Source: Winogradskyella forsetii (GTDB lineage: Bacteria; Bacteroidota; Bacteroidia; Flavobacteriales; Flavobacteriaceae). From it: a stretch of DNA of 64,000 nucleotides. The first letter of the stretch is position 1, and each line of letters begins with the position of its first letter. The notes below the pieces were generated by a model. The model was given only the letters and a program-made list of their open reading frames with translations. It had not been told where the DNA came from and searched no databases. The translations under genes were made by a program, and so were the position numbers. Positions 9,021-57,730 of this stretch are shown here, piece after piece. The stretch lies in NCBI RefSeq assembly GCF_013394595.1, contig NZ_CP053348.1, positions 1,302,001 through 1,366,000 of the forward strand, given 5' to 3'.

Positions 9021-11431
9021 TACTTGGTTGGTGTTAGTATTTGTGTGCTAATGATAGCCTCTGTGGCTTTATCGCTTTGCAGAAAATTGAGACTGTGGTA
9101 TTCGCCAGCAGCCCAAGTGTCTATAAAATTATCGTAGTATTTACTGCCAGGATTACCCGATTGTCCGCCAGGATAAATGCCCAATGCGGTAGGAGGTGAG
9201 GTCATTTCTACAATCATGCGCCAAGAGGGTCCCCAATTTTCGGAAGTCGCATTGACAATATTTTTACCGCCTCCAATAGGAATATCAAATCTTGAAAAGG
9301 CTGGTAAGGCTTGTAATAAATGACCAGCAAATGTGCCTTTGTAATTTACCCAGTTGAGGTCTCCGTTTATGGCTTTCCAATCATTTAAGTTTTTAACCGC
9401 TTTACTAAAACTGAGTTTGAATAAGTCTCTAGCTGTTTCTTTTTCAGGTGTATCTTTCATGTCCATAAAGTCATCATCGCCTTTATTTTTTAATAAATAA
9501 ATGGTTTGGTAGGTGAACGGCGTTTCTAAGGCAGTATCCTCAACTTCAAACTCGTCCCAAACCATATCGTAGAGAACGTCCCACCAAGCATTCCAGATAC
9601 TTGGGCCTTTTTCGTCTTTATCATTATTGTATTGCCATTCTTCAGCAATATCATAAATTTCCTTTTCTTCCTTGGTTAAGTTAGACACATCCATGGTTTT
9701 TAACATATAGGGCATCAATTCATCTGCTTTAAGGTTGTAATTATTGTTGTGTAAATCCTTAAAGTCTTGAACACTAAATTTAGCCTTCGAATTAAAAAAA
9801 TCATTTATCACACGATTTCTATAGGTTTCATAACCATCATTAAAAACATAATAGGGATAAGCTTCATCTACAGGAGATTGATTGGCAGAACTCACAAAAC
9901 CACGCTCCGGATTTTTGGTGTGCGCGTTGAATTGCTGCGGAATATAACCTTGCCAATCGTTTTCAGGTTTAGAGCCGTCCATTACAAATTTGCCTTGGCC
10001 TTCCCATTTATTAGGAAATAGACCTTGAACCCACAAGGCAATATCGCCATCGGTGGAAGCAAAAACGATATTTTGGGCAGGCGCTACCCAATACTGTAAT
10101 GCCTTTTCGTAATCATCATAACCTTTTGCCTTGTTCAGTTCTGTAAATGTTTTTTGACCATTCCCAGAAATATGTCCTGCCCATTTCATGGCATAACCCG
10201 ATAATTCATTATCAGATTTAAAGTTTTTGTCATAAACAACTGGGCCGTGATGTGTATAAAGCACGGAATCTTTATAGCTTTCCTGACCTTTAATTTTGAT
10301 TTCTTCAACTCTAACAGAAACCGCTTTCCATTGGTTATCAAATTTATATTGCGTTCGGTCGTTGTTAAATTCAATTTTATACCAATCAATCACATCGCGT
10401 GTAGCATTGGTTTCGCCCCAAGCAATATGTTCGTTAAAACCGGAAATTACAGCCAATGCGCCTGGTAATGTGGCACCAAACGCATTATGATTTGGTGTGC
10501 TTAATTGCATCACAAACCATATAGAAGGTAAGTTGAGACCCAAGTGTGGATCGTTTGCTAAGATGGCATTTCCTGTTGCTGATTTTTCGTCCGAAATTGC
10601 CCAATTGTTACTGCCATAATTAGGATCTGGTTTATCAATGGTTTCGGCGATGGAATCTAAAACGGGTTCGCTATTTGGATCAGGTGTTTGCGGCACATCG
10701 ATATAACTCCAATCGGTTTCTTTTGGAATGATGGGATCCGTAATGTCAAAGAAATCCGGAAACAATAAATCAAATCGTTCTTTTCCAAATAGTCGTAGGG
10801 CATTGGTGTATTCCATATCTTCATCGCCACCAGCCAGCATTTTAGTCATATACATTAAGAGCAACGCTGTTTTTTTAGGCGTCCAAGCTTCAGGTTTGTA
10901 ATCCAATAATTTATATTCAACAGGATAAGTTTTTGAGTTGAGTTGGTTGATATAACTGTTAACGCCATCGGCATAGGCCTCAACAATAGCCATCATAGTT
11001 TTATCTTCCGACATTTTACTCAGTGTTTGTTCAGCGCCATAGACCATGCCTCGTCTGCGTTCTTGTCGGTCGTAGTTCAGGGCTTTTTCTCCAATAATTT
11101 CAGATAAACGACCCGCTGCTGCATAGGTCTGGAATTCCATTTGCCAAAGTCTATGTTTAGCGGTTATATAACCTTGTACTCTGTATAAATCGAGTTCGTT
11201 TTGTGCGAATACATGTGGAATCAATTCCGCATCATAATATACTGTGACTTTATCTTTTAATTCGGGAATGGAGATATTTCCAGAAATAGCTTCATCGGTT
11301 TCATTTTGCCAGACGCCTGAGTAAGGGTTAAGGAATTTTCCAATGGGAGGAATTGCGCCGAATTTGGTGTTTAAAGCGAAAAAAATGCCTACCGTTAATA
11401 GGAAGGACAGAATGAGTTTAAAATACGTCAT
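9020..11431 (-). CDS. Penicillin acylase family Ntn-hydrolase
   Basis: Periplasmic amidase of the Ntn-hydrolase superfamily. These are made as a precursor and cut by autoproteolysis so that a serine becomes the N-terminus of the beta chain. The expected site is seen at NYGSNNWAIS, with Ser at about residue 274. The N-terminus (YFKLILSFLLTVGIFFAL) is a signal anchor. The alpha-chain part contains RLWQMEFQTYAAAGRLSE and the beta part contains NDPHLGLNLPSIWF and QNIVFASTDGDIALWVQG. Length (803 aa) fits the family. The natural substrate cannot be read from sequence; acyl-homoserine lactones or other N-acyl compounds are known for relatives. Confidence 0.92.
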   Translation of the reverse strand: MTYFKLILSFLLTVGIFFALNTKFGAIPPIGKFLNPYSGVWQNETDEAISGNISIPELKDKVTVYYDAELIPHVFAQNELDLYRVQGYITAKHRLWQMEFQTYAAAGRLSEIIGEKALNYDRQERRRGMVYGAEQTLSKMSEDKTMMAIVEAYADGVNSYINQLNSKTYPVEYKLLDYKPEAWTPKKTALLLMYMTKMLAGGDEDMEYTNALRLFGKERFDLLFPDFFDITDPIIPKETDWSYIDVPQTPDPNSEPVLDSIAETIDKPDPNYGSNNWAISDEKSATGNAILANDPHLGLNLPSIWFVMQLSTPNHNAFGATLPGALAVISGFNEHIAWGETNATRDVIDWYKIEFNNDRTQYKFDNQWKAVSVRVEEIKIKGQESYKDSVLYTHHGPVVYDKNFKSDNELSGYAMKWAGHISGNGQKTFTELNKAKGYDDYEKALQYWVAPAQNIVFASTDGDIALWVQGLFPNKWEGQGKFVMDGSKPENDWQGYIPQQFNAHTKNPERGFVSSANQSPVDEAYPYYVFNDGYETYRNRVINDFFNSKAKFSVQDFKDLHNNNYNLKADELMPYMLKTMDVSNLTKEEKEIYDIAEEWQYNNDKDEKGPSIWNAWWDVLYDMVWDEFEVEDTALETPFTYQTIYLLKNKGDDDFMDMKDTPEKETARDLFKLSFSKAVKNLNDWKAINGDLNWVNYKGTFAGHLLQALPAFSRFDIPIGGGKNIVNATSENWGPSWRMIVEMTSPPTALGIYPGGQSGNPGSKYYDNFIDTWAAGEYHSLNFLQSDKATEAIISTQILTPTK

Positions 11432-11543
11432 GTAAGTGAATTATTGAGACTCTAAAAATAGGGAAATATATAGTAATCCTTAACACGAATTATAACAAAT
11501 CATTGGTTCTAGAACATGGAAGAGATACACTGTCGTAAATTAT

Positions 11544-11584
11544 GAACACTGAACACCGAAAACCGAACACCGAACACCCTACAC
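11544..11584. repeat. Heptamer array (GAACACC type), about 6 copies
   Basis: Successive 7-bp units GAACACT, GAACACC, GAAAACC, GAACACC, GAACACC and CTACACC, abutting the stop codon of the DUF721 gene. Confidence 0.75.
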
Positions 11585-11881
11585 CTAACGAAGCACCAAT
11601 TTTTTGACCACCTCTTTTCTAAGGGATTCATTGAGCATTTTTATGATTTTTTCGGTACCATAACTCAGCTCTTCTCGCAGTACACTGCTACTTAATTGCA
11701 CATAAAGCGTATCGTGTTTTAACTCTATGGCAGTCGTGTAATTGTTGACGCCATTTCCCATCAAATTTGCCCAAGCTTCGCGCACATCTACTTTGTCTAA
11801 ACCCGATTGTAAATTGTTGGTTTCTACAAACTCTTTTAGAATATCTTGAATGGGTTGATTGTCGTTTTTTCGTTTTGCCAT
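11585..11881 (-). CDS. DUF721 (DciA-like) protein
   Basis: Small DUF721 protein of 98 aa starting MAKRKNDNQPIQDILKEFV. DUF721 includes DciA, the ancestral replicative-helicase operator. The core pattern REAWANLMGNGVNNYT...LYVQLSSSVLREEL...ESLRKEVVKKLVLR fits. It lies downstream of recF in the same direction, as in many Bacteroidota, which supports a DNA metabolism role. The frame extends to 11896, but MAKRK is the family-like start. DciA function here is inferred, not shown. Confidence 0.82.
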   Translation of the reverse strand: MAKRKNDNQPIQDILKEFVETNNLQSGLDKVDVREAWANLMGNGVNNYTTAIELKHDTLYVQLSSSVLREELSYGTEKIIKMLNESLRKEVVKKLVLR

Positions 11882-11948
11882 CTTTAGTTGCCGCAAAAGC
11901 GGTCATCTATTTAATAGGATTACACTTTAGTTAGAGTTTACTAAGTTA

Positions 11949-11956
11949 CAAATTTA
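11949..11956 (-). promoter_or_regulatory. Possible -7 promoter box of the DUF721 gene
   Basis: Read on the minus strand this is TAAATTTG (TAnnTTTG), about 68 bases before the start at 11881. Confidence 0.4.
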
Positions 11957-12017
11957 ATAAGTTATTTAGGTATTGAAGCTGTTACGAATTGTTGCTTAAT
12001 AAACTTATGATGACCTA

Positions 12018-12506
12018 TTACTCTTCTAAATCTAATTTTATAGGTGTATAGCGTTTATACACATAAATGTTCTCATCTTCATTTAGGATTCGAAGTTGGT
12101 CTGAAGTCGCTTCCAAAACCGTTTCTTTCCAATTGGCATAAGGTGTAGAATAATAAATGTTTAATTTATTATTTTCAATTTTCAATTCTAAGGTCTCAGC
12201 ATCAGCAGAGGTGAAGTAGGTGTCATTTATACCTGGTTTTAGTTTTTTCCGAAAACCTTTCAAACTATCGTTCACACTTATATAATCTATGGTTTCATTA
12301 AATTTATATTCTTTTTTACGGCCATCTGCCATGGTTACTTCTTCAATTTCCCAATAACCTTCTACATGTGGAATGTAAGTTTCAGGATTCTCGGAGCAGC
12401 TGAAAAAACCAAACATAATAACGACCAGAAAAATACACTTGAAATAAAAAAGATTGCCACAGCCACGCTTTTGGCGAGGCTTCGCAATGACAATAATGTT
12501 TTTCAT
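12018..12506 (-). CDS. Putative lipocalin-like lipoprotein
   Basis: An outer-membrane or periplasmic lipoprotein candidate: a hydrophobic stretch ([14 protein letters not shown]) ends in a lipobox cysteine near residue 37. The mature part starts with a lipocalin-like pattern ([15 protein letters not shown]) and is beta-rich. The start overlaps the recF stop by 4 bases. The first 20 or so residues ([14 protein letters not shown]) are encoded by a hairpin repeat of the GTCATTGCGA...GCAATCT type, so the long N-terminal region before the signal helix is probably repeat-derived, or the real start is downstream. Confidence 0.75.
12451..12491. repeat. Hairpin repeat of the GTCATTGCGA family, copy 1 (inside a coding 5' end)
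   Basis: On the minus strand GTCATTGCGAAGCCTCGC is followed by CAAAA and GCGTGGCTGTGGCAATCT. ATTGC pairs with GCAAT and GCCTCGC with GCGTGGC, giving a nested hairpin. A second copy lies at 47678-47705. Confidence 0.65.
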
Positions 12507-13582
12507 AACTTGAAAATTTTATAAGATTGATGAATTTGTTTTACAACTTCTTCAGTACGTTCTGCATGCGTATCACTGATAAAGATTTGCCCGAAATGCT
12601 CATCATCCACTAAACTGATAATTTGTGCTACTCTGTTTTCATCCAACTTATCAAAAATATCATCTAAAAGGAGGATAGGCGAGACGCCACTTTGTTGTTT
12701 TATAAAATCGAATTGCGCTAACTTCAAAGCTATGAGAAATGATTTTTGTTGCCCTTGACTTCCGAATTTTTTAATCGGAAAATCATCAATCAAAAACACC
12801 AAATCATCCTTATGTGTACCAACACTGGTGTATTGCAACGCTTTATCTTTATTGATATTTTTGTTCAATAAATCCTTTAATTCAGCATCAAACAAATCAC
12901 TTTTGTACTTTAAATCTATTACTTCTTTGCTTTGGCTAATGGCTTCGTAACGCGATTTGAAAATCGGAATAAAGGTTTTTAAAAAAGCATCTCTTTTTTT
13001 AAAAACTTCACTTCCATAGGTGTGGAGTTGTTCGTTATAAATAGCCAGTGTATCTTCATTAAACGTATTGTTAAGCGCAAAATATTTTAAAAGTGCATTC
13101 CGTTGCGCTAACACTTTGTTGTAACTGATAAGTTCGGTTAAATAACTTTTATCACTTTGCGAAATTACACTGTCTATAAATTTACGGCGCGTATCGCTAC
13201 CTTCAATAATTAAATCGCGATCAGCTGGCGAAATAATAACCAAGGGAATAAAACCAATGTGCTCACTGAATTTTTCGTAAGCTTTAGCATTTCGCTTAAT
13301 GATCTTTTTCTGTCCTCTTTTTAAGGAGACGATGATTTTTTCCTCGCGGTCATTTTTAGTAAAATGCCCATCGACCACAAAAAACTCAGCATTGTGGTTG
13401 ATATTCTGAATAGCGATGGGATTAAAGTAACTTTTTCCGAAAGCTAGATGGTAAATGGCATCAAGCGCATTTGTTTTTCCGATGCCATTAGCACCAACAA
13501 AACAATTGATTTTAGCGTCGAAATCGAAAACCTGACTTTCAAAATTTTTGTAATTAATTAAAGATAGTGTGTTTAGATTCAT
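12503..13582 (-). CDS. recF: DNA replication/repair protein RecF
   Basis: ATPase of the SMC-like RecF family that acts with RecO and RecR to load RecA at gaps. Walker A is [10 protein letters not shown] (residues 30-39), Walker B is [13 protein letters not shown] near residue 300, followed by the D-loop/H region ([12 protein letters not shown]). Length of 359 aa is typical. It heads a minus-strand operon with the lipoprotein gene (4-base overlap) and then DUF721. It is transcribed divergently from the TPR protein gene. Confidence 0.97.
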
Positions 13583-35581: not shown

Positions 35582-35656
35582 CGGGGTGTAGCGTAGCCCG
35601 GTTATCGCGCCACGTTTGGGACGTGGAGGCCGCAGGTTCGAATCCTGCCACCCCGA
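35582..35656 (+). tRNA. tRNA-Pro (anticodon TGG)
   Basis: Full cloverleaf: acceptor CGGGGTG pairs with CACCCCG, anticodon stem CCACG/CGTGG encloses TTTGGGA (anticodon TGG at 35617-35619), and the T arm is GCAGG-TTCGAAT-CCTGC. Discriminator base A; no encoded CCA. Its 3' end is the attachment site of the downstream island and remains intact after integration. Confidence 0.97.
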
Positions 35657-35658
35657 CT
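35642..35658 (+). other. attL (17-bp attachment repeat)
   Basis: ATCCTGCCACCCCGACT: the last 15 bases of tRNA-Pro including the discriminator plus 2 flanking bases, identical to 57714-57730. Confidence 0.9.
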
Positions 35659-35888: not shown

Positions 35889-37148
35889 ATGCAATCACAA
35901 ACCACCTTTACCCTGTCATTTTGGGTTAATGCTACACGCATAAAAAACAATCAAGTTTCAGTTTTTGGTAGAATTACTGTAAACGGTAAGCGTGCAAATA
36001 TCAGTTTACAAAGAAAAGTAATCCTATCTGAATGGGATTCCAACAAAGGTAGAGCGCGTGGAAATAAGCAAGAATCTCGATTACTCAACAGATATTTAGA
36101 CCAGGTCAAAAATAGAATTTACGAAGCTCACGACGAACTTGTAAAAGAAAAGACCTTTATCTGTGCTCAATCTATTAAAGCAAGGTTTTTGGGAGAAGAT
36201 AACGAAGAATATTCTTTACTAACATTGGTCGATTACCACAACACCCAAATGAGCGAATCTTTAAGTTATGGTACTTTAAAGAATTACTTCACAACTCAAA
36301 AGTATATCAAACTGTTTCTGACCAAAAAGAAAATACAAGATATCTATTTATCTCAAATCACATTTCGGTTTTTAGTTGACTTTGAAAAATTCCTTCGTTT
36401 ATATGTTCCAGAGGACCATCAAAAGAAAATGGAAAACAACACGGTGATGAAGCATATTCAAAGACTTCGTAAAATGGTAACATTGGCCTATAAGATGGAA
36501 TGGATAGATAAAGATCCTTTTATAAAATTCAAACCAACGTACATCAAGAATGAACGTGAGTTTTTAAGTGAAGATGAACTGCAAACCATTATCGAAAAAG
36601 AATTTGAGATTGAAAGATTGGAACTCGTAAAAGATTTATTTGTGTTTAGTTGTTATACAGGCTTATCATATATAGATGTCATGAACCTTAACGAAGATAA
36701 TATCGCTATTGGTATTGATGGTGGTAGATGGATAATCACTAACAGACAAAAAACACACAATAAAGTAAAAATACCAATATTACCTATAGCTGAAGAATTA
36801 ATTAAAAAGTATAACGGTCACATCAAAACCAAGAAAACTAAAACTTTGTTTCCTAATATTTCAAATCAAAAGCTAAATTCATATTTAAAAGAGATTGCAG
36901 ATATCTGCAGTATAAAAAAAAATCTAACATTTCATATAGCAAGACATACATTCGCAACAACAATAACTTTAAGTAACGGTGTCCCAATAGAAACCGTTTC
37001 TAAACTGCTAGGTCATACTAAAATTGCTACAACACAGATCTATGCAAAAGTTATCGAGAGAAAAGTAAGTGATGATATTACAGCTCTTAAAAATGTTCTT
37101 TCTTCCAAACAGAAGAATAAAACGGAGGTAAATAGAAATGTTAATTAA
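35889..37148 (+). CDS. Tyrosine recombinase/integrase of the island
   Basis: Site-specific recombinase of 419 aa with an N-terminal arm-binding domain, a SAM-like core-binding domain (about 100-200, YGTLKNYFTTQKYIKLFL), and a catalytic domain. The His-x-x-Arg box is FHIARHTFATT, the second His is LLGHTKIATTQIYAKV with the nucleophile Tyr. The first catalytic box reads CYTGLSYIDVMNL, with Ser in place of the usual Arg, as in IntDOT-type integrases of Bacteroidota elements. It is 230 bases from attL and overlaps the convergent AraC gene by 4 bases. Confidence 0.94.
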   Translation: MQSQTTFTLSFWVNATRIKNNQVSVFGRITVNGKRANISLQRKVILSEWDSNKGRARGNKQESRLLNRYLDQVKNRIYEAHDELVKEKTFICAQSIKARFLGEDNEEYSLLTLVDYHNTQMSESLSYGTLKNYFTTQKYIKLFLTKKKIQDIYLSQITFRFLVDFEKFLRLYVPEDHQKKMENNTVMKHIQRLRKMVTLAYKMEWIDKDPFIKFKPTYIKNEREFLSEDELQTIIEKEFEIERLELVKDLFVFSCYTGLSYIDVMNLNEDNIAIGIDGGRWIITNRQKTHNKVKIPILPIAEELIKKYNGHIKTKKTKTLFPNISNQKLNSYLKEIADICSIKKNLTFHIARHTFATTITLSNGVPIETVSKLLGHTKIATTQIYAKVIERKVSDDITALKNVLSSKQKNKTEVNRNVN

Positions 37149-48380: not shown

Positions 48381-48420
48381 AAGAAGTTTAGACGTGCATT
48401 GTTATTCGGTATTAACTCAA

Positions 48421-48455: not shown

Positions 48456-48653
48456 ATGAGTATAAATCGTATTAAAGTAGTTTTGGTAGAAAATGGAATA
48501 AAAAACAAGTGGCTTGCAAAAGAGCTTGGTAAAAGTGAGTCTACTATTTCTAATTGGTGTACTAATGAAAGTCAACCATCTCTTGAAACGTTATTAGAAG
48601 TAGCAAATGTGTTAGATGTTGATATTAGAGAATTATTAATACCTACTAAATAA
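48456..48653 (+). CDS. XRE family HTH regulator
   Basis: 65-aa cro/C1-type protein (KNKWLAKELGKSESTISNWCTNESQPSLETLLEVANVLDV), with all five helices of the HTH_3 fold. As first gene of the operon, two bases before the GHKL gene, it resembles the C (controller) proteins of restriction-modification operons and probably sets the expression of the genes that follow. ATG 48456 is chosen over 48399 because the promoter box lies between them. Confidence 0.92.
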   Translation: MSINRIKVVLVENGIKNKWLAKELGKSESTISNWCTNESQPSLETLLEVANVLDVDIRELLIPTK

Positions 48654-48654
48654 T

Positions 48655-50967
48655 ATGGCAGAAGTACCATTTACTGTATCTGCTCGAACTGCAAGATTAA
48701 TAGGTCAAGAAAACTTTGCTAATGCGGGTGGTGCAATTATTGAATTGATTAAAAACTCATATGATGCTGATTCAATAATTGGAATTGTGGTAGTTGACCC
48801 TATTGATGATCAAATTTTTATTATTGACGGGGGTATTGGAATGACAGAAGAAAAGATAAGAAGCCATTGGATGATTATTGGTACTGACGATAAGCTAGAA
48901 GACCCTTTTTCTACTGACTCAAGAGTTAAGACCGGAGCTAAAGGGATTGGAAGATTTGCGATAGATAGACTGGGGTCTAAATGTGATATGTTTACAAAAC
49001 CAATAGATAATGAAAAAGTTATCAAATGGTCTGTAGATTGGGAGAAATTCAATCAAAAATCTGCTGTTATTTCAGATATAAAAGCTGATTTAAATACAAT
49101 TGAAGATGAGAGTATTATTCATTTAGCTAAAGATATTTTAACTAGCTATGGTATTGATGATTCTATTTTTGAAGAATGGACGGAGGATAAGGGTACGATA
49201 ATTAGAATTAGTGAATTACGAGATGACTGGCATCAAAAAGCTATTGCGATACTTTATTCTAATTTAGAATTATTAGTGCCACCTAAAATTGTGTCAAAAT
49301 TCGATATTCATTTATTTTCTTCCTTAAACCCTATTGGGTATGGAAAAGTTGATTCAACTGTTTGTGATGATTATGATTATAAGATTGTATCAACAAATGA
49401 TGAAGAGGGAAATGTTAATATAAAAATATATAGAAATGAATTAAATTTCGATGAATTAGATATGATTGGTTTTTTTAATTCAGAAATAGTAGAAAATTCA
49501 CCAGAAATATATGGTAAAGAAATATTTCATCAAGGTTATTTTGAACATAATACAACTTTGAAAGGTCTTTTACCAGGTTTTAATGATGTTGATAATAATA
49601 TAGCAAAGATAGGTTCGTTTGATTTTGAGTTCTATTTTATGAAGAGAGGTGGTGGTCAAGAAAAAGATGAAATTCAAAAATACCCATATAAAAGTGTTAA
49701 TTATAGAGATAGAGTTAAATGGTTGAATGAATTTGGAGGAATAAAACTATTTCGCGACTATTTTAGAGTGAGACCTTATGGAGAAGTTAGAAGTAATTCT
49801 TTTGATTGGTTAGATTTAGGAAAAAGAGCATTACAAAATCCAACTGTAACTCGTCCAGGCTATAAAGTTAGACCTCAACAAACATATGGTATTGTTAATA
49901 TTTCTCGTATTCACAATGTTTCCTTTGAGGATAAATCAAGTAGAGAAGGTATTCAAGAAAATGACGCTTTTGCTCTTTTTAAAAATATACTAATTGAGAT
50001 TATTAATGTTTTTGAAAATGATCGTAATCAAGTCATGATGACCTTGAAGAAGATTTATGATGAAAATAATAAAAGGGAGCAGGCGAAAGAAGAGGCCAAA
50101 AATAAAGCTAAAGAGAAACAGTCAGGTAAACCTTCGGATGACCCAAATGAAGAGGATACAGATACTTTGGTAAAAGGTGTTCTTGCCTTTGAGGAAGAAA
50201 ATGAAGATTTAAAAGATGAGCAAAAGTTGCTTCGAGTACTTGCTAGTGCAGGTATGATAGTTACTTCTTTTGCACACGAGTTAAAAAATATGAGTGACAG
50301 TTTGTTGCCAAGAACCTCTGATTTGAAATTGATATTATCAGGTTTAATTGATAAAAATAAGATTGATGAATTACCAGAAGAGCTTAATCCTATAATTTTA
50401 ATAAATGACATTCAAGAACAAGATAAAAAACTTAAACATTGGTTGGACTTCTCTTTAGGAGCAGTAAAGAAAGATAAACGAACTAGAAAAAATATAGATC
50501 TTGTTGATTATCTTATAAAGTTCGAAAGGTTATGGAATTCCATATTACAAAAAAAGAAAATAGAGTTTTCAATAAAAAGAGGAGTGTTTTCAGAGGTCTT
50601 TTTTAAAGGACACGAGATTGATTTAGATAGTATTTTTAATAATCTGATTGCTAATTCAGTAGATGCGTTCAATAGGTCTGATGCAACTGATACACGAAAG
50701 ATTGAATTTAGGTTTGAATACGATATAAAAACAGGTATAAGTGTTGTTTATGAAGATTCGGGTCCTGGTTTAGAAAAGGAAATAGTAGATCCTAACAAAA
50801 TATTTTTACCATTTGTAAGCACAAAAAGGGATGAACATACAGGAGAACAAATTGGAACAGGTTTGGGTATGTGGATTATAAAATCTGTAATAGATGAGTA
50901 TAATGGATCTATTAGGTTGTCAAAGGTCAGACCGGGTTTTCAAATTAATATAAAACTTCCAGCATAA
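48655..50967 (+). CDS. Double-GHKL ATPase/histidine kinase of a candidate defence system
   Basis: 770 aa with two Bergerat-fold ATPase modules. The N-terminal one is MORC/Hsp90/MutL-like: N box AIIELIKNSYDAD (E30, N34, D37), DGGIGM (58-63) and GAKGIGRFA (94-102). The C-terminal one is histidine-kinase-like: phosphoacceptor candidate SFAHELKN (H541), FNNLIANSVDA (661-671), DSGPG (701) and GTGLGMW (734). A charged coiled segment (about 465-525) joins them. The next gene is a receiver protein, so signalling by phosphotransfer is likely. MORC-like GHKL ATPases are known in restriction-modification operons; the kinase half is what is unusual. No signal peptide or membrane helix. Confidence 0.9.
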   Translation: MAEVPFTVSARTARLIGQENFANAGGAIIELIKNSYDADSIIGIVVVDPIDDQIFIIDGGIGMTEEKIRSHWMIIGTDDKLEDPFSTDSRVKTGAKGIGRFAIDRLGSKCDMFTKPIDNEKVIKWSVDWEKFNQKSAVISDIKADLNTIEDESIIHLAKDILTSYGIDDSIFEEWTEDKGTIIRISELRDDWHQKAIAILYSNLELLVPPKIVSKFDIHLFSSLNPIGYGKVDSTVCDDYDYKIVSTNDEEGNVNIKIYRNELNFDELDMIGFFNSEIVENSPEIYGKEIFHQGYFEHNTTLKGLLPGFNDVDNNIAKIGSFDFEFYFMKRGGGQEKDEIQKYPYKSVNYRDRVKWLNEFGGIKLFRDYFRVRPYGEVRSNSFDWLDLGKRALQNPTVTRPGYKVRPQQTYGIVNISRIHNVSFEDKSSREGIQENDAFALFKNILIEIINVFENDRNQVMMTLKKIYDENNKREQAKEEAKNKAKEKQSGKPSDDPNEEDTDTLVKGVLAFEEENEDLKDEQKLLRVLASAGMIVTSFAHELKNMSDSLLPRTSDLKLILSGLIDKNKIDELPEELNPIILINDIQEQDKKLKHWLDFSLGAVKKDKRTRKNIDLVDYLIKFERLWNSILQKKKIEFSIKRGVFSEVFFKGHEIDLDSIFNNLIANSVDAFNRSDATDTRKIEFRFEYDIKTGISVVYEDSGPGLEKEIVDPNKIFLPFVSTKRDEHTGEQIGTGLGMWIIKSVIDEYNGSIRLSKVRPGFQINIKLPA

Positions 50968-50968
50968 A

Positions 50969-51619
50969 ATGAGTTACAAAGTAGCATATATAGACGAAAT
51001 GGATTCTGATATTAGATCCTTTAAAAGAAGTGTATTATTAAGAGCTAATGAAAAGTTTGAGGTTGTAGCAATAAAACCAAAGGCTAATATAAATGATACA
51101 GTATCAATGATTTTTGAAAATTTTGTAGATGCTGTTGTCGCAGACTTTAGATTATCAGAGGAAGACCCAACAGTTCACTATAATGGTTCTGACTTGATAA
51201 AAGAGGTTCTAAACATAAGAGATGACTTTCCTGTGTTTATTTTGACTTCATTTGAAGATGATGCGGTGGACCAAGGTTTCGATGTTAATATTGTTTATGA
51301 AAAAGTAGATGTGCAAGAAACTTCGAAGTTTTTTGATAAAGTAATTTTGCAAATTAAAAAGTATAAGGCTAAAATAGAATCTGCTGAATTAAGAATTCTT
51401 GAACTTACTGAAAAAAGGAAAAATAACCCTCTTACTAATTCAGAGGAACAAGAATTTTTAGAGCTAGACTCTTTAATTGAAAAATCTTTAGATAAACAGT
51501 CTAAAATTCCAGTAGATTTAAAGGCTACTACAAATTCAGAGAGACTAAAGGAATTACTTAATAAGGCAGATAAGATAATTGAAGCAATAAATAAGAAGAA
51601 TTTGGATGGAGAAAATTAA
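50969..51619 (+). CDS. Receiver (REC)-like response regulator protein
   Basis: Residues 1-125 look like a CheY-type receiver: acidic pair DE (9-10), phosphoacceptor Asp in VVADFRL (D59), Thr in ILTSF (T93) and Lys in YEKVD (K112). The rest is a helical coiled-coil region with no DNA-binding domain, so its output would be protein contact, perhaps with the nuclease or methyltransferase. It starts one base after the kinase stop and overlaps the HNH gene by 14 bases. Confidence 0.85.
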   Translation: MSYKVAYIDEMDSDIRSFKRSVLLRANEKFEVVAIKPKANINDTVSMIFENFVDAVVADFRLSEEDPTVHYNGSDLIKEVLNIRDDFPVFILTSFEDDAVDQGFDVNIVYEKVDVQETSKFFDKVILQIKKYKAKIESAELRILELTEKRKNNPLTNSEEQEFLELDSLIEKSLDKQSKIPVDLKATTNSERLKELLNKADKIIEAINKKNLDGEN

Positions 51620-52178
51620 TTTTAGAAGCAAAGCGCCTATTCGAACATATTCTGGAAAAAATTATACCAATTATAGAAAGTATAAGCCTTATTTAAAGGA
51701 AGATTTTAATGGTAGATGTGGATATACTGATTGTAGTCAACTTTGGTTTGGAGGTTCAAATAGTTTCCATATTGATCATTTTAAACCAAAATCGATTCAC
51801 CCTCATTTAGAAACAGAGTATGCAAATTTAGTGTATTCTTGCTCTTATGTTAATATAGCAAAGGGAGATGATGACTCTGATTATTTAGATCCATGTGAAG
51901 ACGATTATAACCATCATTTTTATAGAGATAGAGTTGGCAATATTTTTCCAATGACTCAATCTGTGAAAGCAAATTATATGTTTTCTAAAATGAAGCTATA
52001 TTTAAAAAGATATTCTGTAATTTATATGTTAGATTTTTTAAGGCAAAAAATGAGCTTGATTAGTGAAATGATTTCTGATATGAAGGAAGGAGAGGATAAA
52101 AAGGAGTTATTAATGTTGCAGGGAGAATTAGCAGTAGAGTTTTTGGAATATTTAAAATACCTAGAAGTTGAACAATGA
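51606..52178 (+). CDS. HNH endonuclease
   Basis: 190-aa protein with an HNH core: FNGRCGYTDC (C38, C43), FHIDHFKPKS (H55, D57, H58) and YANLVYSCSYVN (N74, C79, N83). The layout, with the His-Asp-His-Phe-Lys-Pro-Lys-Ser box, resembles PtuB-like/TIGR02646 nucleases used in phage defence, but zinc-ligand spacing is altered. It would be the nuclease of the operon. It overlaps both neighbours (14 bases upstream, 4 downstream). Confidence 0.88.
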   Translation: MEKINFRSKAPIRTYSGKNYTNYRKYKPYLKEDFNGRCGYTDCSQLWFGGSNSFHIDHFKPKSIHPHLETEYANLVYSCSYVNIAKGDDDSDYLDPCEDDYNHHFYRDRVGNIFPMTQSVKANYMFSKMKLYLKRYSVIYMLDFLRQKMSLISEMISDMKEGEDKKELLMLQGELAVEFLEYLKYLEVEQ

Positions 52179-53770
52179 AAAAAAAAGAAATAGGTTCATA
52201 TTACACACCACTTCATTTAGCAAAATTTATTGCTGATTACTGCTTGTCTCAAATAGAGAAGCCTAATATTACTGTGCTTGAACCAAGTGTTGGTGATGGT
52301 AATTTTGTACAGGCTATAAATGAAATTGAAGCATTAAATAATTTTAATAAAATCAATTTAACGATTGTAGAAAGAGAAAATACGGAATTAAAAAAAGCAG
52401 TAAAAAAGAACAAGAATAAGTCTATAAAAGTAACCGCTTTAAATAAGGATTACCTTAATTTTCATTCTGATAGCAAAAAGAAATTTTCAGCCATACTAGG
52501 AAATCCGCCTTATGTAAAAAGTAATTATCTTACTGACGAGCAAAAGAAACTAGCAAAAGAGATTCATTTAGAACAAAATCTTTCAGATAGAAAAATTAAT
52601 AATATTTGGACATCATTTTTAATTAGTGGTATATCTAAATTACAGTCGGATGGGCTATTGGCTTTTGTGCTTCCTCTAGAGTTGTTACAAGTTAAGTTCA
52701 CTGAAGAAATTCGCAACTTGCTTAAAAAATCTTTTGAGCGTATTGAGATTTTTATGTTTGATGAGCTTCAATTTTTAGAATGTAAAGGTCAAGATACAGT
52801 ATTGTTAATCGGTTATAAAAAACATAAAGTACCAGGTACATTTTACACAACTATAAAGTCTATGGAAGAGCTTCAAAATAGAAGTTTCAGATTATATAGT
52901 AATGAAAGTGTATCTGAATCCAATAAAAAGTGGACTCACCATTTTATAACACCGGAAGAGCATACATTTCTTGAGAATATAAAAAAAGACTTAAATCTAG
53001 TTTCCGATTATGTAGATAATAAAGCAGGTATTGTAACAGCAGCAAATAACTATTTTATTGTTGATAAGGAAACTTTAAATAATTACGAATTAGAAGAGTA
53101 TGCAAAGCCTATCGTGCAAAAAGGATTCTTTGTAAATGGATCTGTTACTTTTAATAAACATGATTATTCAAAATTAATAAAGAATAATAAGCCTGCATTT
53201 TTATTAGATTTTAACGATTTAGATATTCAAAACATTCCTTCGAATGTACAGGATTATATAGCTTTAGGAGAAGAAGAAAAGCTTCAAGAGAGATTCAAAT
53301 GTAAGCAACGCACCAATTGGTACCAAGTGCCAAATATTGCAAAACAATCAAAGGCATTTTTCTTTAAGAGAGCTCATGAATATCCTAAATTATTGAAGAA
53401 TGAGGCAAATGTTTTTGTAACCGATAGCGCTTATAATGTTACTATTAAAGATGATTTTAATTTAAATGATTTTATATTCTCATTCTATAACTCATTAACG
53501 CTCGCTTTTGCTGAATTGGAAGGACGTTATTATGGTGGTGGTGTTTTAGAGCTTACACCAAATGAGTTTAGGGTGCTGCCTATACCAATGGCTGTTCACA
53601 ATGATTTTAATTCATATAAAAAGGACTTTAAAGGTAAACAAGATATTAAGGATGTACTATTTAAATATAATTATCAAATTTTAAATAGCTCTCTTAATCT
53701 TAATCCAGAAGAGATTAATAAAATTGAATCAATTAGAAAGAAATTGGTTAATAAAAGACATCGTAAATAG
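52175..53770 (+). CDS. N6-adenine DNA methyltransferase (Eco57I/TaqI-like)
   Basis: 531-aa gamma-type amino-methyltransferase. GSYYTP (7-12) and SAM motif I LEPSVGDGNF (35-44) lead to the catalytic NPPY (110-113). The C-terminal half (WYQVPN; VFVTDSAYNVTIK; YYGGGVLELTPNEFRVLPIP) matches TaqI-type target-recognition regions. It would modify host DNA to protect it from the HNH nuclease, or provide the recognition specificity. It overlaps the HNH gene by 4 bases (ATGA) and is the last large gene of the operon. Confidence 0.94.
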   Translation: MKKKEIGSYYTPLHLAKFIADYCLSQIEKPNITVLEPSVGDGNFVQAINEIEALNNFNKINLTIVERENTELKKAVKKNKNKSIKVTALNKDYLNFHSDSKKKFSAILGNPPYVKSNYLTDEQKKLAKEIHLEQNLSDRKINNIWTSFLISGISKLQSDGLLAFVLPLELLQVKFTEEIRNLLKKSFERIEIFMFDELQFLECKGQDTVLLIGYKKHKVPGTFYTTIKSMEELQNRSFRLYSNESVSESNKKWTHHFITPEEHTFLENIKKDLNLVSDYVDNKAGIVTAANNYFIVDKETLNNYELEEYAKPIVQKGFFVNGSVTFNKHDYSKLIKNNKPAFLLDFNDLDIQNIPSNVQDYIALGEEEKLQERFKCKQRTNWYQVPNIAKQSKAFFFKRAHEYPKLLKNEANVFVTDSAYNVTIKDDFNLNDFIFSFYNSLTLAFAELEGRYYGGGVLELTPNEFRVLPIPMAVHNDFNSYKKDFKGKQDIKDVLFKYNYQILNSSLNLNPEEINKIESIRKKLVNKRHRK

Positions 53771-54600: not shown

Positions 54601-55590
54601 ATGAATAATTATTTAGATGAATATAAATATGTTAGTGAAGTATTATCAAAATACGGATGGTTTATTAATGGAGAAATAATTGGAGGTGATTTCGATAGGA
54701 TAAAATTACTTTGTGAAGAAATAGAGTCTAAAAATTACGATAAAGATACTTGTAATGAAAAAATTAATTATTTATTAAGCCCTATAATATTTAATCCTTA
54801 TTCAAGAGCATTTGTTAATTATAGGTTTCTAATTTTACCTCATTTGAATAAGTTTTCTCATTTGGTTGATAAAGCAACTTTTCACTATTTTAAAAAAGAT
54901 TTACTGTCTTCAATTAATTGCTTAACACCAGTAATTGAGGGTGTATTGTTATCATACAACAGTTGGTCAATAGATGAGGGTAAAAGAAAACCATCATTAA
55001 AGGAATTAGTTGAAAATATATGTGCAAAAGAAGGCGAATTTAGACATCATTTGAGAAAACTTTATAATGCTTCTTTAAAGAACTGTCTTCATAATTGGTT
55101 TTATGCAAATACAAATAGTTTTGATTTTGAATCTTCAAATTTAAATAGACACTATATCAGCCATAGTTTAGGCAACGATAATTATTATTCCATTTCCGAA
55201 TGTAATAGAATGTTTTCGATAGTAAATCTTCTTTGTGAAATTATAGCAATTGAAAGCAGATATTTTCCTGCTTTTATACCAGAGAATATTCCCGAAATTG
55301 ATGACCGAGTTAATTTGTACTATGAACTAATGTGGAAGAGAATATCTTTAAAAAAAGCGTTATCTGAAGAAGAAAGATTATTAAACCAAAACAAGTATTA
55401 CGTTAGTCAAGAATCATTATTGAATTTTAGAGAAATTGTTGAAGCTGAAAATAAAAAACACAATGATTTTTCAAATTCATTTAACACAGAAGAAAAGGAA
55501 AAAGTATCTAAAATCAATAGACCTTTTCCCTTTATCGTTAAATTAAAAAAATTAAGGTTTAGGTTTTTTGGTCAAAGACCGAAGCAATAA
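54601..55590 (+). CDS. HEPN-like uncharacterised protein (329 aa)
   Basis: All-helical soluble protein without known family name. The motif NLNRHYISHSLG (R183, H188) fits the R-x4-6-H pattern of HEPN RNases, preceded by a helix with Glu (LTPVIEGVLLSY), as in several abortive-infection proteins. So an RNase or defence role is possible but not shown. The end is basic (KLKKLRFRFFGQRPK). Its last 39 bases overlap the 3' end of the convergent minus-strand gene. Confidence 0.7.
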   Translation: MNNYLDEYKYVSEVLSKYGWFINGEIIGGDFDRIKLLCEEIESKNYDKDTCNEKINYLLSPIIFNPYSRAFVNYRFLILPHLNKFSHLVDKATFHYFKKDLLSSINCLTPVIEGVLLSYNSWSIDEGKRKPSLKELVENICAKEGEFRHHLRKLYNASLKNCLHNWFYANTNSFDFESSNLNRHYISHSLGNDNYYSISECNRMFSIVNLLCEIIAIESRYFPAFIPENIPEIDDRVNLYYELMWKRISLKKALSEEERLLNQNKYYVSQESLLNFREIVEAENKKHNDFSNSFNTEEKEKVSKINRPFPFIVKLKKLRFRFFGQRPKQ

Positions 55591-57713: not shown

Positions 57714-57730
57714 ATCCTGCCACCCCGACT
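57714..57730 (+). other. attR (17-bp attachment repeat)
   Basis: ATCCTGCCACCCCGACT, identical to attL in tRNA-Pro. Bases upstream of it do not continue the tRNA, so only the 3' end is duplicated. Confidence 0.9.

Follow-up and report, generated by a model that had tools for sequence, protein, structure and literature searches.

Restriction is normally decided by a nuclease that reads DNA directly. Detocs, a phage defence system with a histidine kinase and a receiver, uses a nucleoside phosphorylase as its effector and is not known to include a methyltransferase. Closer to the locus described here is a prediction made for the histidine kinase-like HEF_HK (PF19191) and the receiver-like Response_reg_2 (PF19192): in the sections of Bellieny-Rabelo 2021 (PMC8011034) that concern them, the pair is tied to restriction-modification (R-M) systems and paraMORC ATPases, and such two-component pairs are speculated to control R-M. 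The paraMORC/MORC R-M operons, as presented in parts of Iyer 2008 (PMC2292703), bring together genes for a GHKL ATPase, a nuclease and a methylase, as does our locus, and paraMORC1 is noted there with HNH. These parts of the 2008 text differ from the situation described below in that they contain neither "receiver" nor "response regulator", while "histidine kinase" occurs just in spelling out GHKL.

Within the window, by which we mean the whole 64,000-nucleotide stretch of Winogradskyella forsetii DNA that was analysed, ORF calls revealed a tight five-gene operon on the + strand in the order XRE-K-R-H-M. With a probability of roughly 0.6, we consider K-R-H-M to be a putative defence operon of the restriction type that is mobile and is controlled by a His-Asp phosphorelay. 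Its features are as follows, where the 88 systems are the window and 87 others, selected as described below.

48456..48653, + strand: XRE-type HTH protein, 65 aa (Pfam HTH_3, 1.2e-12)
48655..50967, + strand: K, MORC-like ATPase fused to a histidine kinase, 770 aa (Pfam, PDB profiles, residue conservation)
48730..49086, + strand: N-terminal GHKL domain of K (HATPase_c_3), residues 26-144 (Pfam, 6e-16)
50272..50460, + strand: DHp-like region of K, residues 540-602 (conserved H541, aligned motif, model helices)
50275-50277, + strand: codon of the predicted phospho-acceptor H541 of K (invariant in 88/88 systems)
50611..50961, + strand: C-terminal CA/HATPase_c domain of K, residues 653-769 (Pfam, 4.6e-18)
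50969..51619, + strand: R, stand-alone receiver with a C-terminal extension (weak Pfam Response_reg, PhoP profile match)
51143-51145, + strand: codon of D59 of R (invariant in 88/88 systems)
51606..52178, + strand: H, PtuB-like HNH nuclease (Pfam, PADLOC, PDB profile)
51777-51779, + strand: codon of H58 of H (88/88 systems)
52175..53770, + strand: M, Eco57I-type N6-adenine DNA methyltransferase (Pfam and PADLOC searches)
52502-52513, + strand: NPPY motif of M (N110/P111/P112/Y113)

The ORFs and their spacing are as the first-pass annotation had reported for a tight five-gene operon, with one base between XRE and K and between K and R, and overlaps of 14 bases (R-H) and 4 bases (H-M). The ORF list has a TTG at 48399 for XRE; we took the ATG at 48456 as its start because this fits the HTH domain.

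K combines HATPase_c_3, DHp and HATPase_c regions in a single protein, as judged from Pfam, PDB profiles and a structural model. Weak domain calls were settled by comparing profiles of relatives with PDB sequences, and the numbers given for such matches are profile positions. Positions 525-769 of K match the histidine kinase LvrB (1.2e-15), and positions 550-773 match the kinase of 2c2a/3dge, presumably HK853 (2.8e-15), whose SHEL histidine is aligned with the H541 motif. A match to MORC3, which we take to be the human protein, spans positions 26-200 only (4.6e-7); in MORC/paraMORC ATPases an S5-type domain comes after the GHKL domain. The matches in K agree with Pfam and bear out the earlier description of K as a double-GHKL protein whose ATPase also carries a histidine-kinase module. 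E30, N34 and D37 of the N-terminal GHKL domain are present in 86/88 systems, the remaining two being gapped, and N663, N667, G734, G736 and G738 in the C-terminal domain are found in all 88. In an AlphaFold2 model of K based on 61 sequences (mean pLDDT 80, pTM 0.70), an alpha/beta region at the N-terminus and an alpha/beta domain at the C-terminus enclose two long helices (437-489 and 499-538) and the DHp-like helices (540-546, 552-564 and 579-602).

R matches Pfam Response_reg weakly and under the cut-off (E 0.023), and its best NCBIfam match is a response regulator, at 20.2 bits against a cut-off of 300. Among PDB sequences, its profile matches the PhoP response regulator (1.5e-5), and the C-terminal extension weakly matches a coiled-coil chain. 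Pfam found no DNA-binding domain in R, consistent with the proposed receiver without DNA-binding output. Besides the invariant D59, K112 is present in 87 of the 88 systems, T93 in 86 (with Ser in the other two), D9 in 85 and E10 in 83. H541, D59, T93 and K112, which had been singled out from the window alone, were the correct key residues and are invariant or nearly so.

The single H sequence matches the PADLOC PtuB model (1.5e-15) and its profile matches PtuB among PDB sequences (5.9e-4), while the Pfam HNH match is just under the cut-off (6e-4). N74 is as conserved as H58 (88/88), and N83 is present in 87/88 systems. The window copy is without two of four Cys, which are kept in 50/88 and 49/88 systems. 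The second Cys of each HNH CxxC pair is replaced jointly, with C/C in 49 systems, T/V in 34 and other combinations in five; the window H has T and V at residues 41 and 82 (51726-51728 and 51849-51851). One lineage has possibly lost a zinc site. M matches Pfam Eco57I (2e-12) and M_Eco57I_C (4.5e-34), and its NPPY motif is conserved, with N110 in 87/88 systems, P111 and P112 in 88/88 and Y113 in 85/88.

The HEF_HK pairs resemble K-R in having a kinase with N-terminal HATPase_c_3 and C-terminal HATPase_c domains, a receiver-like neighbour and an R-M setting, and some HEF_HK occur with HNH_2. C5 methyltransferases are conspicuous at HEF_HK loci, whereas K-R-H-M has an Eco57I-type N6 methyltransferase and a PtuB-like HNH. 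HEF_HK was not found in K (searched at E 0.1 for the window and at E 0.05 for the loci L040 and L032) or over the cut-off in the window's own genome, and Response_reg_2 was not found in the window R at E 0.1. Pfam detected HEF_HK in the K proteins of L159, L177 and L178, and Response_reg_2 in their partners. These HEF_HK kinases and the window K fall in separate groups of the K tree, where 25 close kinases among the 61 rows are grouped (support 99) and the three HEF_HK kinases lie elsewhere; the tree was made by a quick method with a midpoint root, each of its six labelled groups forming one side of a branch and 13 rows being unlabelled. As both defining Pfam models are missing from the close clade, we rejected membership of K-R-H-M in the HEF_HK family.

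H falls in the same HNH group as Septu PtuB and the retron HNH effectors. Septu was rejected because K, being a GHKL protein, gave no PtuA match at E 0.01 and a methyltransferase is present, and a retron HNH effector (TIGR02646) because H scores 35.5 bits against the NCBIfam cut-off of 52.15. No reverse transcriptase was found among the Pfam matches of the five gene products. Detocs is alike in kinase and receiver, and K-R-H-M differs from it by the HNH and the methyltransferase. A PADLOC search gave no Detocs-named match, with a database (PADLOC-DB 2.0.0) that may not include Detocs. Residues 8-198 of K resemble the N-terminus of BbrUII/HgiDII restriction enzymes (NF050001, 2.6e-11), with a score of 42.8 bits against a cut-off of 550.

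Neither PADLOC nor NCBIfam gave a system name for K or R, and we found no published account of a K-R-H-M operon in the open-licence PMC literature. The legend of Fig. 6F in the DefensePredictor study (PMC13092281) names HATPase and REC in predicted systems, which may overlap with K-R-H-M. The first-pass annotation had matched the locus to no named system; our searches found none either, yet the idea of a phosphorelay attached to R-M is not without precedent because the 2021 paper had predicted such a pair. Our best reading is that K-R-H-M is a variant, not previously named in the sources searched, of a class known from prediction.

For the distribution of K-R-H-M, contigs were scanned with an alignment of seven K sequences, and the best 80 of 456 relatives by K similarity were used. 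Close-K loci were those with a K BLAST score above 220 bits and a length above 690 aa. There were 100 of these, excluding L001-L004, which duplicate the window and L139-L141 in shorter form. The set of 88 systems was formed after dropping L109 and L139, whose K is identical to that of L108 and L068, respectively. All four genes were identified by profile in 89/100 close-K loci, including altered ones: L032, where an IS66 adjoins the altered start of K, L080 and L086, in which H and M respectively are split, and L122, whose M is at a contig end. Four of the 11 incomplete loci stop at a contig end (L054, L059, L088 and L123). Another six (L127-L132) have an upstream N6_Mtase ORF, over the Pfam cut-off in five and just under it in L127, and L060 has a broken R, of which a 70-aa piece alone is left. 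The K pieces of L034 and L038 were under the length cut-off; an N6_Mtase ORF lies downstream in L038.

R and H are adjacent in 87/87 distinct full systems, with M on the downstream side in 83 of them and on the upstream side in four. Median gaps are 1 base for K-R, -4 for R-H and -4 for H-M (87, 87 and 83 systems). Because the four genes recur jointly in distant phyla with such tight gaps, their association goes beyond chance. Isolates labelled Bacteroidota, Bacillota (Paenibacillus) and Pseudomonadota are among the carriers, as are MAGs, whose labels may be wrong, assigned to Campylobacterota, Thermodesulfobacteriota, Verrucomicrobiota, Saccharibacteria and Methanolobus. Within the window's phylum, a close K (E <1e-120) was found in 4/395 sampled genomes, its own included, and is accompanied by R, H and M in each of them. 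The co-occurrence that the first-pass annotation had proposed as a check is therefore seen across several phyla. Kinase-receiver pairs mostly without HNH or methyltransferase neighbours were not the pattern in the close clade, where the four contig-end loci are the only ones in which no methyltransferase was found. Just 20/100 close-K loci have an XRE-like ORF in the 700 bp before K. XRE was on this count rejected as a core member, and its earlier inclusion as a part of the system gives way to an accessory or optional role.

We analysed covariation in 87 systems, leaving out L032 with its altered K start. When the 151,956 K-R column pairs were ranked by mutual information in a reduced alphabet, four of the best five joined DHp positions 576, 577 and 585 to R positions 16, 20 and 23, the DHp-R region tested being 0.7% of the K-R column pairs. 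Interface pairs never entered the top five across 60 permutations. With the full 20-letter alphabet the interface signal is weak: the pair (585,20) ranks eighth and the other interface pairs lie outside the top twelve. A charge-swap scan, made without preselected positions, covered K-R, K-H, K-M, R-H and R-M, and its bar was at least 10 systems of each orientation and zero like-charged. Six of 152,914 K-R pairs passed, and five of these six join the DHp to helix 1 of R; the sixth, K387-R176, is outside the DHp-receiver interface. No pair passed for K-H (0/134,746), K-M (0/361,089), R-H (0/35,956) or R-M (0/96,354), and there were no passes in 200 permuted K-R pairings. Since permutations break relatedness, comparison with the other protein pairs is a fairer control.

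At the position pair K585/R20, 46/87 systems have opposite charges and none have like charges. Among 40 representatives below 55% identity, with the bar set at 5 of each orientation, four of five K-R swap pairs are at the interface, with K50-R16 outside it, and no K-H or R-H swap pairs were found. Same-branch co-changes number 4-6, against 1.05-1.22 expected, for four K-R pairs that were chosen after the scan. Kinases and receivers classically dock through the DHp of the one and helix 1 of the other. According to PMC5231405, which cites Skerker 2008 and Weigt 2009, the equivalent positions of different kinase-receiver families covary. Direct docking of K and R is well supported by these sequence patterns, and phosphotransfer from H541 of K to D59 of R is very likely. 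This part of the original proposal is upheld by residue conservation together with interface covariation.

K-R-H-M might be a conventional type II R-M system, with a sequence-specific HNH and a cognate methyltransferase, in which K-R just tunes expression or activity. Consistent with this, the HNH and N6 methyltransferase genes are adjacent, a methyltransferase lies near every close-K locus not ending at a contig end, and an XRE is present, as in controller-protein R-M systems. We examined the coupling of the four proteins by a mirror-tree analysis of distances in 85 systems, leaving out L032, L122 and L080. Distances correlate strongly for K-R (0.87), R-H (0.80) and K-H (0.73), against 0.37, 0.32 and 0.25 for M with K, R and H. 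Given K, the partial correlation is 0.50 for H-R and -0.02 for H-M, so that H and M are uncoupled. M has also been swapped between loci: L046 and L091 share an M that is 94% identical, versus 43, 32 and 51% for K, R and H, while L065 and L100 have K, R and H that are 63, 60 and 62% identical versus an unrelated M (17%). Swapping is not uniform, since 36 systems with a short M show tighter K-M (0.72) and H-M (0.49) links, the latter in keeping with a type II system.

These comparisons support M as an exchangeable module. Because H evolves with K-R and M is swapped, H is probably not an M-matched type II enzyme of the classical kind, and recognition within the HNH enzyme itself is unlikely because M is interchangeable. 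That H does not co-evolve with M also casts doubt on the earlier statement that an HNH and a methyltransferase together make up a normal R-M core. With R having no recognised DNA-binding domain either, we regard a conventional type II system as rather improbable.

Alternatively, K-R could gate M or feed back on K rather than act on H, the HNH being a Septu-like effector with another trigger. PtuB-like HNH enzymes are known in other systems, and the swap scan contained no direct R-H interface signal. Peaks of mutual information between R and H may be clade signal, and no fused R-H ORF was seen among the loci whose ORFs were examined. Against this alternative, R and H remain correlated given K (0.50), the plain R-M correlation is just 0.32, and the R and H genes are adjacent in every distinct full system. 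This makes control of M or K instead of H unlikely, albeit the strongest of the rival explanations considered here.

The operon is carried as cargo in the right half of an integrative element of ~22 kb at tRNA-Pro (35642-57730), delimited as follows.

35642..35658, + strand: left att repeat, 3' end of tRNA-Pro (17 bp repeat)
35889..37148, + strand: integrase adjoining tRNA-Pro (Phage_integrase, 5.5e-17)
57714..57730, + strand: right att repeat, exact 17 bp copy of the 3' end of tRNA-Pro

The tRNA-Pro, the adjoining integrase and the 17 bp repeats confirm the tRNA island recognised in the first pass. Other cargo of the element includes an RteC protein (Pfam) and, by eye from translations, aldo/keto reductases and hydrolases. 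For a 329-aa ORF after the operon (54601-55590), searches of Pfam, PADLOC and NCBIfam yielded nothing at the thresholds applied. Elsewhere, 19 loci on viral contigs were found by the K-alignment scan, where a scan with a single K sequence found nothing, and phage records gave two weak partial matches. Plasmid matches came from 123 records; among the 40 matches listed, five belong to the close type, at 31.6-41.3% identity, and the other 35 are below 25%.

Carriage by an integrative element, plasmids and viral contigs would also fit an addiction or abortive-infection module of a mobile element, in which the nuclease would be the toxin, the antidote would be methylation, K-R or both, and defence would be a by-product. 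The discussion in PMC8011034 mentions that R-M systems can kill cells losing them. On the other hand, an ATP-driven kinase relay arguably exceeds the needs of a simple addiction pair, and we consider this the least probable of the explanations weighed.

We scanned 136 flanking proteins from 34/46 loci with long enough flanks; they matched 70 PADLOC and 139 Pfam families, of which the 25 most frequent in each set were listed. Some flanking genes match the PADLOC cyclase, SduA and AriA models, as seen without a comparison set, and the Pfam families listed include mobile-element and housekeeping ones too. In L040, the nearest relative, the operon is directly followed by the gene (10776-13496) for a protein of 907 aa that matches STAND-like NTPases and TPRs. 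L034, on the Klebsiella variicola plasmid pBM374-1, is a decayed copy with an N6 methyltransferase, K in three pieces, a receiver and an HNH, and lies near the annotated anti-phage gene ppl.

In the wider K superfamily, at ~24-30% identity, loci often lack an HNH, and receivers with other outputs occur. Distant K genes are often preceded by a methyltransferase: by BLAST, 18/30 upstream genes cluster with the C5 methylase of L142, and others include N6_N4_Mtase (L146) and Eco57I (L137). AspBHI/Mrr-type restriction enzymes are modification-dependent, and one of them (L169:9868-11109) occupies the usual methyltransferase position of the wider family. The gene after a distant K is receiver-like, either stand-alone or several hundred residues longer, with the designation as a receiver not established for all of these partners because several are without a Pfam match. 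In L036, L037, L151 and L157, whose kinases form one group, K and its partner are followed by a metallo-beta-lactamase-fold protein in place of the HNH. In four other loci (L142:9839-10915, L149:6830-7915, L162:6700-8013 and L177:3780-5375), the receiver-like partner ends in an output domain that bears a TPxCD-like motif. Two groups of this domain were linked by comparing profiles (E 1.3e-7) and a third weakly (1.8e-4, probability 48), with no assignment to a fold or family.

Taken as a defence operon run by a phosphorelay, K-R-H-M would work as follows. K, probably soluble and dimeric, may detect a signal inside the cell through its MORC-like N-terminal ATPase; the likeliest signals are DNA that is foreign or unmethylated, or a complex of M bound to DNA. 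The long K helices would relay this state to the DHp/CA kinase, predicted to autophosphorylate H541 and pass the phosphate to D59 of R, a step strongly supported by sequence. Operon structure, co-evolution and analogy suggest that the phosphorylation state of R would switch the HNH nuclease H, which would cut DNA. M would mark self DNA as an interchangeable module, and XRE, where present, probably times expression. A bolder version, which we put forward as a tentative possibility, is that the nuclease has no sequence specificity of its own: the plug-in methyltransferase would recognise the DNA, the MORC-like ATPase would read its methylation, and the phosphorelay would fire the HNH post-translationally. 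K-R-H-M would then belong, as a single branch, to a superfamily whose kinase clades each retain a particular output, namely an HNH, a metallo-beta-lactamase fold or a fused domain.

In K-R-H-M, a signalling relay appears to be interposed between recognition and cutting, and the enzyme that sets the self mark appears exchangeable. If true, this would amount to reversible, threshold-setting control over DNA cleavage. It could explain how R-M islands enter a naive host without killing it, and would provide a function for bacterial MORC-like ATPases fused to kinases.
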